This document shows, piece by piece, positions 2,936-13,448 of a stretch of DNA of 28,757 bases. Below the pieces are notes generated by a model, which saw only the letters and a list, made by a program, of their open reading frames with translations, did no database searches and was not told the DNA's origin. The DNA is taken from positions 1-28,757 of IMG/VR virus record IMGVR_UViG_3300046816_000538, one strand, 5' to 3'. Within the stretch, counting starts at the first letter, position 1. Each line of letters begins with the position of its first letter. This DNA is from a virus. A program made the position numbers and the translations under genes.

Positions 2936-3027
2936 GAGTCCCCGGAGTGGACTCCCGCCAGCAGCTCCGAGAAGAGTCCTGCTAGTCTCGCCGTCCACAC
3001 AACGCCGAGAAGAGTCTTTCTAGTCTC
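2936..3027. repeat. Leader repeats: GAGTCC hairpin and a 23-base direct repeat
   Basis: A perfect inverted repeat GAGTCC / GGACTC (2936-2941 with 2949-2954) is followed by two near-identical copies of CCGAGAAGAGTC-N4-CTAGTCTC-type sequence, 2967-2989 and 3005-3027, 38 bases apart. The GAGTC core recurs in both. The repeats lie between the promoter at 2862 and the start at 3050, so they may be operator sites or a structured leader. There is no gene in 2779-3049. Confidence 0.7.
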
Positions 3028-9336: not shown

Positions 9337-9502
9337 TCTTGTCCTCCAGGACGTGATAGTCCCAATCGACCATGGCCAGGACGGCCTCCTTCGCCTGTCT
9401 CAGAACGTATTCGTCATCCACGCATTTCCCGAATGAATTCGTTATCACGACCACCATCGAGTCCTTGGATTCTCCTATCTGTGCCTTCACCAGAATCCTC
9501 AT
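9323..9502 (-). CDS. Small hypothetical protein, 59 aa
   Basis: Not recognised. It begins at ATG 9502, sharing one base with the helicase stop (TGATG), with AAGGAG 10 bases upstream, and ends inside the HTH gene start, so it is part of a translationally coupled chain. The sequence is compact and mixed alpha/beta (MRILVKAQIG, then VVVITNSFGK and YVLRQAKEAVLAMVDWDY). No Cys pairs, membrane segment or signal peptide is present. An open frame running further upstream is a shadow of the helicase gene. Confidence 0.65.
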   Translation of the reverse strand: MRILVKAQIGESKDSMVVVITNSFGKCVDDEYVLRQAKEAVLAMVDWDYHVLEDKNVDK

Positions 9503-12066
9503 CAGAAAAACTCTCCTTGCTTCAAGACGTTCTGCGCGATGATTGACGCCGCGTCCTTCCTCGATACCGTCCTGGCCTGCTCCTCGTTCACGCCCTTGGC
9601 CAGCAGCTCCTTCACCTGCTGGTGCGAGGCAAGCCCCTTCTTCTCCCGCGACTCCAGCTTGCCGAGCAGCCGGCTGGCACCGTAGAGGTTCATCTTCTCG
9701 GCCCCATCCACGCCCAGCTTCTTGAGCCTGGCCACCTGGAATGGCGTGGCCGGGCCGCAGCGATAGGGGTCGAAGTCCTTGCCCTTCCTCACCCCGATGT
9801 CGAGCACCTTCCCCACCCCGAACGGGCTGTTGTCGGTGTGGGCGTAGATCTCCGTGTGCTTGCCCGTGTAGTTGACCGAGATCACTCGGGCCTGGTGGAG
9901 ATCCCACTCGATCTCCCTCAGCTCCCGGAGGATGTCGATGTCCTGATTGCGCTCGTCGGCCTTCCGTTCGCGGTGGACCCTGGTCCGGTCGTTGAGGATG
10001 TCCAGGGCGTCCTTCGAGAAGCCCTCCGAGAACAGCATGGCCGGGATGTCGAGTTCCCTCGACGAATCGTCCTGCTGCCAGTCTAGATCCAAGACGAGGC
10101 AGTTAGAGACTAGAAGTCCTTCGACAGTGAAGCGATGACGGGGTCCGGCGTTGAGAATGTCCCATACACGCCTTTCGGCTTGAACGAAGGGCTGTTGAAT
10201 CTCTCCACGATCTCCTCGTCCGTTAGGCCGCGTCCCACCAGTCGCCTCAGCGTGGAGTCCGAGTACCGAACTTCCGGATGACGGACCCTGAACTCGTGTA
10301 TCTTCGAGTTCACCCTCCTTTTCCTCGTGTTTGAAGTGTTTTGCGATCTGGTCGCGTATCTCAGGTTGCCCGGCTCGTAGTGGCCGTTGTTGTCGATCCG
10401 GTCTATCTCCATGCTCTTGTGCAAACCAAGGGTCGATTGAACCCATAGGCACATCTCCGAGACCGAAGAAAACCGGAATTCTATCCCTCTGCCGCCGTAC
10501 TGCTGGTACGACGATGCGTTCGGATTGCAGCACCTCTGCTGGGCGGACATGGCCCTCCTGTAAAGCCATTTCGGAAACCGTGTCGGGTGGGAGCATTTGG
10601 TGCATCCTGCCTGCCCGTGCTCGATCGAGTGGAGTTGCCTCAGTTTCACCTCCTTGCAGTGGATGCATTCCGTCCAGATCATCGGCTTCGGATTCCTGAC
10701 GATCTCCGTAGAAGCGATTCTCAGATTCCCGAATTGGCGTCCCACCAATCCCGGCAACAGCAATTCCAAGTTCCTTCTCTTGGCACTCACGAAATGTCCT
10801 CCAGCCGTGTCTTGTCCAGACTTTGTGGTCAGGTGTGGCTGTCAATCTAGCATAGGATATTACTTCCTGTTTGCCTTTGCAGATTGCGCCGGAATGGCTG
10901 ACGAATTCGCAGCCATCCCAGACCCTCATCGCCGTTGTCACGTTCTCGATCGGAACGAGACCACGATCCGTGAGGACCCTCTGGCCTTCTGCAATGCAAT
11001 CGGTTTTTCCGGCCGAAGTGCACAATCGGGTGCCGCGCCCCACCATCTGGCAGGCTTTGTAGCGCTTCTTGGTGGGCCGGGCGATCACCACGCAGCTCGT
11101 GGCGGGGTTGTCCCAGCCTTCCACGAGGAGGTCGCAGCTCACGATGACCTGCGTCTCCATCGCCTTGTAGCGTGCGAGCCTCTGCTTGCGGACATCCTTG
11201 GTGATGCCGAACTTGCCGGCGGCGCCAGCAACGTACTCGGCCTTCCTGCCCATCGCCACCAGCATGTCGGCCACCATGTGGGCGGAGCCGACGTCGGGCG
11301 TGAACACCACCGTCTGGCGGTCGCCCACGTTGGCGTGGATCTGGTAGGCCAGCTTCTCTATGGCGGGGCTCAGTCGCTCGGCGAGATCTCCCAGATTGTA
11401 ATCTCCGCCAGTGGTCCGGATGTGTCGCAGATCAACTGGAACCTCGATTCGCCGGATCTTGACAGGAACAAGATGTCCATCTTCGATGGCGCTTCGCAGT
11501 CGCATCTGATAACCGACAGATCCAAAAACCTGAGATAGACTGCCTGTGGCTCCGTCGGGGGTGGCAGTGAGACCAAGAAGGTAGTAATCCTGGAAGTGGC
11601 CGAGGACGGATTTGTAGCTGGCTGCTGCGGCATGATGCGCCTCGTCGATGATGATGAGACCGAACCTGTCCGGCCGGAAACTCCCGGCCAGCCTTTCGTC
11701 GTAGAGCGACTGCACGGAGGCCACCACCACCTCAGGCTCCTTGCCGTGGGACCTCACGAACTCGCGCTCGGATTGCCCGCCCATCTCGATGGCGGTGGAG
11801 AAGCCGAAGGCGTTGACGTAGGTGTTGGTGGCCTGCTCGATCAGCTCGGTACGGTGGGCGATGAACAGCACGCCACGGCCGAACTCCTCGATCATGTACT
11901 TGCTGATCAGCCCGGAGGTGATGGTCTTGCCCGTGCCGGTGGGCAGGCACAGCATCACGCCCTGGCAGCCCGCCTCCCACTTCTTGGCCACGCCGCACAG
12001 GGCGTCGATCTGATAGTCCTTTCGCTCGATGCTGGGCGGTAGCTCGATCTCCCTTGGGTCCTTCAC
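9502..12066 (-). CDS. SF2 (UvsW/DEAD-like) helicase precursor with intein, 854 aa
   Basis: Helicase motifs in order: Walker A GTGKT (44-48), DEAH (141-144), TATP (167-170) and QMVGRGTR (340-347, motif VI). These define an SF2 DNA/RNA helicase of the UvsW/RecG-like repair and recombination type. A 299-residue intein (Cys357-Asn655) interrupts it just after motif VI; splicing would give a protein of about 555 aa with Cys656 as the +1 residue. The GTG start at 12066 is chosen because GGAG lies 7 bases upstream; frames above it enter palindrome copy 4. The gene heads a coupled chain with the 59-aa, HTH and MazG-like genes. A separate HNH gene lies inside the intein in another frame. Confidence 0.88.
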   Translation of the reverse strand: MKDPREIELPPSIERKDYQIDALCGVAKKWEAGCQGVMLCLPTGTGKTITSGLISKYMIEEFGRGVLFIAHRTELIEQATNTYVNAFGFSTAIEMGGQSEREFVRSHGKEPEVVVASVQSLYDERLAGSFRPDRFGLIIIDEAHHAAAASYKSVLGHFQDYYLLGLTATPDGATGSLSQVFGSVGYQMRLRSAIEDGHLVPVKIRRIEVPVDLRHIRTTGGDYNLGDLAERLSPAIEKLAYQIHANVGDRQTVVFTPDVGSAHMVADMLVAMGRKAEYVAGAAGKFGITKDVRKQRLARYKAMETQVIVSCDLLVEGWDNPATSCVVIARPTKKRYKACQMVGRGTRLCTSAGKTDCIAEGQRVLTDRGLVPIENVTTAMRVWDGCEFVSHSGAICKGKQEVISYARLTATPDHKVWTRHGWRTFRECQEKELGIAVAGIGGTPIRESENRFYGDRQESEADDLDGMHPLQGGETEATPLDRARAGRMHQMLPPDTVSEMALQEGHVRPAEVLQSERIVVPAVRRQRDRIPVFFGLGDVPMGSIDPWFAQEHGDRPDRQQRPLRAGQPEIRDQIAKHFKHEEKEGELEDTRVQGPSSGSSVLGLHAEATGGTRPNGRGDRGEIQQPFVQAERRVWDILNAGPRHRFTVEGLLVSNCLVLDLDWQQDDSSRELDIPAMLFSEGFSKDALDILNDRTRVHRERKADERNQDIDILRELREIEWDLHQARVISVNYTGKHTEIYAHTDNSPFGVGKVLDIGVRKGKDFDPYRCGPATPFQVARLKKLGVDGAEKMNLYGASRLLGKLESREKKGLASHQQVKELLAKGVNEEQARTVSRKDAASIIAQNVLKQGEFF
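10110..10790 (-). CDS. HNH homing endonuclease-like gene nested in the intein, 226 aa
   Basis: It is read in the +1 frame relative to the helicase/intein, same strand. It has a zinc-binding pair set (C42, C45, C63, C66) and the phage HNH endonuclease core: RAMSAQQRCCNPNASSYQQY, then GGRGIEF, EIDRIDNNGHYEPGNLRYAT and NTSNTRKR. A helix-turn-helix-like end (YSDSTLRRLVGRGLTDEEIV) probably contacts DNA. GTG 10790 has a perfect GGAGG 7 bases upstream, formed from the intein codons for Trp-Arg of block B. Its stop lies 8 bases before the end of the intein, so it also overlaps blocks F and G. It would cut intein-free alleles and drive homing. Confidence 0.86.
   Translation of the reverse strand: MSAKRRNLELLLPGLVGRQFGNLRIASTEIVRNPKPMIWTECIHCKEVKLRQLHSIEHGQAGCTKCSHPTRFPKWLYRRAMSAQQRCCNPNASSYQQYGGRGIEFRFSSVSEMCLWVQSTLGLHKSMEIDRIDNNGHYEPGNLRYATRSQNTSNTRKRRVNSKIHEFRVRHPEVRYSDSTLRRLVGRGLTDEEIVERFNSPSFKPKGVYGTFSTPDPVIASLSKDF
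10798..10802 (-). promoter_or_regulatory. Embedded ribosome binding site of the nested HNH gene
   Basis: GGAGG on the minus strand, 7 bases before the GTG start of the HNH gene. The same bases encode Trp-Arg (TGG AGG) in intein block B. This site shows the nested frame can be translated on its own. Confidence 0.8.
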
Positions 12067-12088
12067 ATCCCGGCTCCATAGGTGGGAA

Positions 12089-12123
12089 AAGCCATGTGGT
12101 GCCAAATTGGCACCACATGGCTT
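12089..12123. repeat. Dispersed palindrome copy 4, with changed outer arms
   Basis: Perfect 17-base arms around a central A (12106). The core matches the other copies (GTGGTG type), but the outer part is AAGCCATG paired with CATGGCTT instead of GGTATG/CATACC. Both arms changed together, so pairing is preserved. It lies between the ParB-like gene (stop 12148) and the helicase start (12066). Confidence 0.93.
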
Positions 12124-12147
12124 CGTATGAGTCCGATCAATATCCTG

Positions 12148-13362
12148 TTACTTGCTATCCACCTTCAGGCGGTAGCCGCCGCCGACGCAGGCGGTGCAGG
12201 CCACCATGATGTCTTTCCCGTTGGTATCCTGGCCCGGCACCTGGCCGGCGCCCTTGCACTTGAAGCACACCTCCCAGTCGCTGGGATGCTTGGCGTTGAC
12301 CAGGCCGTTGAGCCGGTTGAAGAAGTGGCCGTTGCCGCCGTTAGTGTCCTTGGCCTCGGCCAGCGCCTTCTTCACCGACACCCTCAGCCGGACGATTGCA
12401 TCGGCCGTCCTGCGGTAGAGGATGGCGTCCTTCGAGAACGCGCTACGCTTGCGCCCAGGCCCGCTCAGGAGCTTGAGGATGCCGCCGCAGAACTGGCCGA
12501 GCCACTCCTCGTCGGTCATATCCACTTCGGTGGCCAACTTCTTCCTGGGCGGCTTGACCGTGGAGCCCGGCTTCTTGGCGGCCTTCTCCTTGACCTTGTT
12601 CGCCACCCGCAGCGCCTCTTCGTGATCCGTGCCGCTGACGATCAGCTTGACCGCCGTGTCGATCGCGGCCTTGTCCTCCAGGTCGGCCAGCTTGTCATAG
12701 GTGGCCTCCTTCACGTCGTGCTTGGCCAGGAGGTTGAAGTGGTCGTGGTCCAGGTGGCTGGCCCGCTTCGTCAGCCTCTGGGCGGTACGCAGGCTGATCT
12801 CGCCGTTGCTCATGTCCTGGATCAGCTTCGGGAATGACTTCGGCTTGGGGTTGGCCTCGATCACTTCTTCCCGGATCTGCTCCTTTTCCTGCTCGGACAA
12901 TTCCTTGCCCGACTCCGCCTCGGCCTCCTCCACCTTCCTGCGTACGTCGTACTCGATCGCCACGTTCGTGGCCCGCGTGCCGTCGGGGTTCTTGGAGTCG
13001 TAGATCCGCTTCAGGTCCACGAGGGCCTTCTGGGACTGCACGTCGGTCAGCGGGTTTCGCATCAGGTTTTCGCTGATCTCGACCGCCCTGGCCTCGTCGT
13101 CGGTCATGCTATCGGGGGCGATCTTGCAGTTCATCTCGGGACGCTTCAGGATCTGGAACCACGAATAAACCCTGTGCATGCCGGCGATCAACCTAAACCT
13201 GTCAGGCTGGCCCGGGATGGGCCGCACGATCGGGTCCTGGAGCACGCCCACCTGTTCCATGTTCTCGGCCAGCGACTCGCAGAATGCTCGCGAGAAGGTG
13301 CGATGATCCGGATTCGGCTGATCCATGACGATCTGTTCGCGCCTGAGGCTTTGGACCTTCAT
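12148..13362 (-). CDS. ParB-like protein with C-terminal zinc finger, 404 aa
   Basis: Residues 1-110 are a ParB/sulfiredoxin-like domain: LAENMEQVGVLQDPIVRP, AGMHRVYSWF (the GxHR box, 60-66) and ISENLMRNPLTDVQ. A central region with EISLRTAQRLTKRASHLDHD may be helix-turn-helix. Lys-rich linkers follow. The end has a zinc motif CFKCKGAG...CTACVGGG (C366, C369, C389, C392) like DnaJ repeats. Phage ParB-like proteins may act as CTPase clamps, nucleases or transcription regulators. ATG 13362 has GGAG 6 bases upstream. Palindrome copies 4 and 5 flank the gene, making them candidate binding sites. The leader is long (about 400 bases, with hairpins). Confidence 0.83.
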   Translation of the reverse strand: MKVQSLRREQIVMDQPNPDHRTFSRAFCESLAENMEQVGVLQDPIVRPIPGQPDRFRLIAGMHRVYSWFQILKRPEMNCKIAPDSMTDDEARAVEISENLMRNPLTDVQSQKALVDLKRIYDSKNPDGTRATNVAIEYDVRRKVEEAEAESGKELSEQEKEQIREEVIEANPKPKSFPKLIQDMSNGEISLRTAQRLTKRASHLDHDHFNLLAKHDVKEATYDKLADLEDKAAIDTAVKLIVSGTDHEEALRVANKVKEKAAKKPGSTVKPPRKKLATEVDMTDEEWLGQFCGGILKLLSGPGRKRSAFSKDAILYRRTADAIVRLRVSVKKALAEAKDTNGGNGHFFNRLNGLVNAKHPSDWEVCFKCKGAGQVPGQDTNGKDIMVACTACVGGGYRLKVDSK

Positions 13363-13419
13363 CTGTGTCTCCGGTGTGTTTTTGTACCTGCTGGACTTCC
13401 CAACCGTAGACCCGGTTTT

Positions 13420-13448
13420 GTATGTGGTGCCAAATTGGCACGACATAC
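13420..13448. repeat. Dispersed palindrome copy 5, one arm mismatch
   Basis: Arms of 14 bases around a central A, with one mismatch because one half-site is the GTGGTG and the other the GTCGTG variant. It lies 57 bases upstream of the ParB-like start, in its leader. Confidence 0.92.

Follow-up and report, generated by a model that had tools for sequence, protein, structure and literature searches.

A viral helicase intein with an HNH endonuclease gene overprinted in the +1 frame

How does an intein come by a homing endonuclease when the DNA between its splicing motifs encodes none in frame with them? The question is raised by the virus record IMGVR_UViG_3300046816_000538, analysed over its whole length of 28,757 bases (referred to here as the window), in which a helicase gene, an intein within that gene and an HNH gene within the intein all lie on the minus strand (Table 1). 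Very probably the answer is a mobile intein with a homing endonuclease encoded by a gene of its own, which overprints the intein in the +1 frame. Translation of the helicase would run through the intein, whose blocks A, B, F and G would fold as a Hint domain, with self-splicing expected, and the overprinted middle would be merely an open, floppy linker in the precursor. On the same mRNA, ribosomes would initiate at an internal Shine-Dalgarno (SD) sequence and a GTG just past block B to make the HNH enzyme, which would cleave helicase genes that lack the intein, at its insertion site or close by, and repair would then copy the intein in. Computation established the anatomy of the element, the conservation of both frames, the selection on the HNH frame in relatives, the enrichment of SD motifs and the exactness of the insertion.

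Overlaying the two frames placed blocks A (CIAEGQRVLTD), B (TATPDHKVWTRHGW), F (VWDILNAGPRHRF) and G (LVSN/C, the slash marking here and below the intein junction or insertion site) in the helicase frame, as a first-pass annotation of the same DNA had done. The intein ends are exact, with C1 at 10998, Asn299 at 10104-10102 and the +1 Cys next, in keeping with the C-terminal Asn and the +1 Cys, Ser or Thr of class 1 inteins; Cys1 is present in the window intein and in all 54 unique inteins scored, and T55 and H58 of the block B T-x-x-H motif are invariant across the relatives. The intein is of class 1 type and is predicted to be active in splicing. It splits the helicase between GKTD and CLVLD, where intein-less homologues read GKTD/LLLLD or GKTE/LLLLD (consensus QMVGRGTRLxPGKxx/LLLLDFLW). 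Empty sites in phage helicases are QMVGRGTRLFPGKEN/LLLLDFLW, QMVGRGTRLHPGKTE/LLLLDFLW and QMVGRGTRLSPGKTD/LLLLDFLW, and the window has QMVGRGTRLCTSAGKTD/intein/CLVLDLDW; the insertion is clean, at a conserved helicase position, with Cys at +1. The intein is also the lowest-GC 897-nt stretch of the window (0.552 vs a median of 0.635), as expected for a newcomer element. The TTG at 12105 may not be the true start of the helicase, which could use a codon further downstream.

In the AlphaFold model of the intein frame, residues 1-95 and 272-300 were predicted with high confidence and residues 100-271 were unstructured, and all significant Foldseek matches of the model were inteins (top E 1.4e-4, probability 1.00). 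As modelled, the intein ends form a Hint domain and the overprinted middle is disordered. Phage HNH genes are often housed in group I introns, and an intron of this kind bearing the HNH gene was considered; it was rejected and has next to no credibility here, as the host frame is open throughout, all splicing blocks are present, the ends take the Hint fold and an Rfam search of 9400-12200 gave no intron match. A highly improbable alternative is a non-splicing insertion in which an out-of-frame HNH gene is tolerated as a loop of the host protein, as in the ShiLan domain (PMC11855218). ShiLan likewise conceals an HNH gene beneath a host frame free of stops but is without splicing domains, whereas the window has the conserved C1, T55/H58, Asn299 and +1 Cys and ends modelled as Hint.

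The complete HNH protein described by the first-pass annotation was recovered over the same DNA, with codon position 1 of the HNH frame falling on codon position 2 of the helicase frame. Its GTG start is at 10790-10788, and the GGAGG before it is formed by the Trp-Arg codons that end block B, also as annotated; at the other end, the HNH stop is at the same place (14 nt before the end of the +1 codon) in 23/38 loci. Zinc-ribbon cysteines (42/45/63/66) and a DRIDNNGHYEPGN core are present, and in the HNH alignment D130, R131, N142, C42, C45 and C63 are invariant and C66 nearly so. The nested protein has the HNH-type catalytic core and zinc ribbon of a phage homing endonuclease and would be expected to cleave the empty target site-specifically. 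The AlphaFold model of the HNH frame folds (mean pLDDT 83). The endonuclease is not in frame with the splicing blocks, as it would be in a canonical endonuclease-bearing intein, and none of the relatives has an HNH fused in frame to them. Were the HNH frame a relic, the intein would be fixed and its endonuclease inactive after a recent loss of function. Decay of this sort is seen elsewhere, namely a truncated HNH in Javan422, a mini-intein in a Ruminococcus phage and a premature HNH stop in PhiSdyV1524. In the window, however, the HNH is full length, keeps every invariant residue, is 55% identical to that of locus L010 and belongs to a strongly constrained family, which leaves a relic fairly improbable.

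Relatives were collected from viral and genome contigs, scanned with the HNH protein and with an alignment of it; once duplicates and two truncated copies had been set aside, 50 unique +1-nested inteins remained, that of the window among them. In tblastn searches, DNA polymerases of Streptococcus and Gardnerella phages aligned with the intein frame from end to end at 31-34% identity, and the HNH frame hit these polymerases at the same places, in another frame, at 33-40% identity. By names read from their sequences, the hosts of the nested inteins are helicases, a RecA/DnaB-like ATPase and family A polymerases, the latter at several sites. All 50 unique inteins have 0 host-frame stops across the HNH match (the third frame has 6-22), while the would-be host frame of 121 free-standing HNH relatives (duplicates included) has 2-36 stops and never zero. 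The argument of the first-pass annotation that no simple frameshift explains the arrangement therefore holds, and a frameshift or assembly artefact is ruled out by the conservation of both frames. When synonymous codons of the HNH frame were permuted in the window alone, the helicase frame was stop-free in 0.1% of trials; synonymous resampling over 26 distinct loci (HNH <80% identical) gave an expectation of ~292 host-frame stops, against 0 seen.

Selection was estimated with an overlapping-gene test on pairs of polymerase inteins, which gave a dNN/dNS of 0.10 (0.07-0.13) for the HNH frame and, for the intein-frame linker, a dNN/dSN of 0.64 (0.37-1.15) and a dNS/dSS of 0.91. The same test on Jerseyvirus inteins, in which the HNH gene occupies the other alternative frame, gave 0.11 (0.05-0.22) for the HNH frame and 0.39 (0.15-1.09) for the linker. 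The HNH frame is under strong purifying selection in the relatives, and the linker is near-neutral apart from stop avoidance. Across the homologues it is the +1 frame that is conserved and the linker frame that is not, the reverse of the pattern that the first-pass annotation had named as speaking against its dual-coding proposal. The few conserved linker columns (DRQQRPLR) reflect the HNH core in the other frame, and the KPKGxYGTFSTxDP tail of the HNH protein likewise reflects block F. Within the overlap, GC at third codon positions is 0.75 in the HNH frame vs 0.46 in the host frame (0.80-0.91 in the exteins). A scan of viral contigs with exact intein-frame peptides gave no matches because the intein frame is poorly conserved.

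SD complementarity of at least 5 nt precedes a candidate HNH-frame start in 40/54 loci, vs a background of 6% per start codon, and in much of the polymerase group the start is an ATG whose position is fixed (intein nt 145), with motifs such as AAGGAGG or GAGGTGA at a spacing of 9 nt. This enrichment favours internal initiation as the probable mechanism of HNH expression and lends support to the earlier suggestion that the endonuclease could be made without splicing. Programmed frameshifting out of the helicase frame would instead yield an extein-N-intein-HNH fusion, which is geometrically possible because the 17 HNH-frame codons preceding the GTG in the window contain no stop (243 aa from stop to stop). 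With HNH-frame SD motifs strongly enriched at fixed places, and with the HNH of split-intein relatives being an open reading frame (ORF) with its own starts, this route is decidedly unlikely.

Several points weigh against a functional, separately expressed endonuclease within an active intein. Foldseek found no significant solved-structure match for the HNH model, to which the HNH enzyme PacI matches at a Z of 5.0 only, and a sequence search of solved structures with the HNH protein was likewise without a significant match. The remaining 14/54 loci lack an SD of at least 5 nt before a start. The penultimate intein residue is Ser298 (SN/C) in place of the usual His; the SN ending occurs in 8/54 unique inteins, and the His, which is usual and not absolute in class 1 inteins, was not taken as defining. 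Selection was measured in polymerase-intein relatives, the window copy having no close relative for a direct test, and some of the pairs share one clade, with smaller subsets in agreement. Splicing, internal initiation, cutting and homing are steps that we infer.

Table 1. Positions of the features in the window (numbered from its first base) and groups of related loci.
Feature	Position	Strand	Basis or description
Host gene, SF2 DEAD/ResIII-type DNA helicase, 867-aa precursor counting the intein	9502..12105	-	Pfam ResIII 1.5e-33, DEAD, Helicase_C; PHROG 16 DNA helicase 8.4e-79
Intein, 299 aa, helicase frame, C1 ... LVSN / C+1	10102..10998	-	Frame overlay; precise insertion; predicted Hint fold
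N-terminal splicing module, blocks A and B (CIAEGQRVLTD..., TATPDHKVWTRHGW)	10780..10998	-	Invariant C1, T55, H58; AlphaFold pLDDT 92-97
C-terminal splicing module, blocks F and G (VWDILNAGPRHRFTVEGLLVSN)	10102..10182	-	Invariant D280, G285, V297, N299; pLDDT 82-94
Overprinted linker, intein frame	10186..10704	-	Stop-free; near-neutral in relatives; predicted disordered
HNH homing endonuclease gene (predicted), 226 aa, +1 frame, wholly within the intein	10110..10790	-	PHROG 374 4.7e-23, PHROG 3377 4.4e-22; alignment; pLDDT 83; purifying selection in relatives
GGAGG ribosome-binding site (putative), 7 nt before the HNH GTG	10798..10802	-	Made by intein Trp-Arg codons at the end of block B
HNH stop TAG, within Leu-Val codons of block G	10110..10112	-	Frame overlay
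ParB-like gene	12148-13446		PHROG 3264, 2.5e-22
Palindromes	97, 3402, 8119, 12091, 13419, 16062, 18708, 23705, 27335
28-nt repeat (CAGCTCCGAGAAGAGTCCTGCTAGTCTC), two near-copies	2962-3027		38 nt apart
DNA polymerase inteins with HNH in the other alternative frame			L219, L220, L226-L231 (Salmonella and E. coli phages), L221, L222, L232, L133, L134, L140
Split family A polymerase loci, intein halves overlapping the HNH gene at both ends (frames 0/+1/+2)			L036, L037 (=L114), L041 (=L121), L119, L139

The arrangement had been said to seem rare or undescribed, a reading that needs two corrections. Besides the 50 unique inteins, ~163 Jerseyvirus-type phage records, nearly all from Salmonella phages, have at least 80% identity to the nested HNH of SE2; they are labelled, e.g., "DNA polymerase" or "intein-containing DNA polymerase precursor" (the intein is annotated in Ent3), and the nested HNH is unannotated. 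In APSE-1 (L009, AF157835 29132-29554), part of the nested HNH is covered by an annotated ORF, P46, within the polymerase gene P45. Out-of-frame nested HNH genes in inteins are thus not rare and are mostly unannotated. As for undescribed, an out-of-frame HNH in a phage gene has been reported in the non-splicing ShiLan case (PMC11855218).

A quick maximum-likelihood tree of 127 HNH proteins, in which many deep branches are weak, clusters the window with other nested HNH genes. The nested genes of APSE, Caulobacter and Shewanella sit amid free-standing genes (SH-aLRT 99); those of the Jerseyvirus type form their own clade (SH-aLRT 99). The tree suggests about three separate nestings across both alternative frames. 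At the five split polymerase loci, the N-intein ORF ends inside the HNH gene and the C-intein ORF begins within its 3' part, with an ATG preceded by AGGAG as the C-intein start in 3/5. A nested gene with its own start and stop would leave the host frame free to break, which would give overlapping N-intein/HNH/C-intein triples such as these. We lean slightly towards out-of-frame nesting being a general, repeatedly evolved route of HNH genes into inteins (at least three origins, in both alternative frames) and a stepping stone to split inteins. A further half-intein was seen in the polymerase ORF of locus L184, where another intein is represented by its C-terminal half (YDILNAGPRNCFMANGRIVSN/S), upstream of the nested intein and after a stop; this is possibly a second, split intein.

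If the overprinted gene functions as proposed, the same bases would serve two selfish ends at once, with splicing encoded in one frame and homing in another, and overprinting would free the endonuclease from splicing and from folding within the intein. Such overprinting would account for junk-looking intein middles. It also gives well-known Salmonella phages a gene that their annotation lacks and outlines a testable route by which intact inteins could become split ones; further inteins annotated as being "without an endonuclease" may hide one in another frame.

Elsewhere in the record, nine near-identical odd-length palindromes, GTATGTGGTGCCAA(A/T)TTGGCACCACATAC, of ~30 nt each were found where 0 are expected; since two of them flank the ParB-like gene, parS-like or operator sites are possible. 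A short repeat in two near-copies was also seen (Table 1).

Among known systems, the fractured genes that Dassa et al. are said to have described in 2009 are split inteins with free-standing endonucleases. They resemble the present case in having a separate endonuclease gene within an intein-bearing phage DNA metabolism gene, and the five split polymerase loci resemble them further, except that the genes of these loci overlap. The window differs in that its host ORF and intein are unbroken, and thus it is neither a fractured gene nor a split intein, the endonuclease lying on top in another frame. The APSE and Salmonella Jerseyvirus (SE2, SETP3, Ent3) polymerase inteins share nested out-of-frame HNH genes with the window, but these belong to other clades and, in the Jerseyviruses, to the other alternative frame. 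In canonical inteins, the endonuclease domains occupy one conserved insertion site (PMC6801210). The window shares with the PI-SceI type a Hint intein with endonuclease coding between blocks B and F, and the homing logic; unlike in that type, the endonuclease is read in another frame and extends over blocks F and G, with a start and a stop of its own, and would stay outside the precursor. Priority for describing nested-HNH inteins is uncertain, as the report on ShiLan and its cousin Pacc40, out-of-frame HNH genes hidden in phage methylases (Arsenault, Gosselin, Gogarten 2025, PMC11855218), cites two works in connection with overlapping frames: Gorbalenya 1998, which deals with non-canonical inteins, and a 2025 preprint by Gosselin, Arsenault and Gogarten, in which inteins of actinobacteriophages with "non-canonical architecture" are the subject and endonucleases out of frame with their inteins may be described. 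The hidden HNH of ShiLan is probably the nearest described case: as in the window, the HNH is out of frame in a phage gene, the host frame is open, its product is poorly structured and, in ShiLan, the start is GTG. ShiLan and Pacc40 are without intein splicing domains and their authors detect no ribosome-binding site, whereas the HNH gene of the window has an intein around it and an SD before it, and the hosts here are helicases or polymerases in place of methylases.
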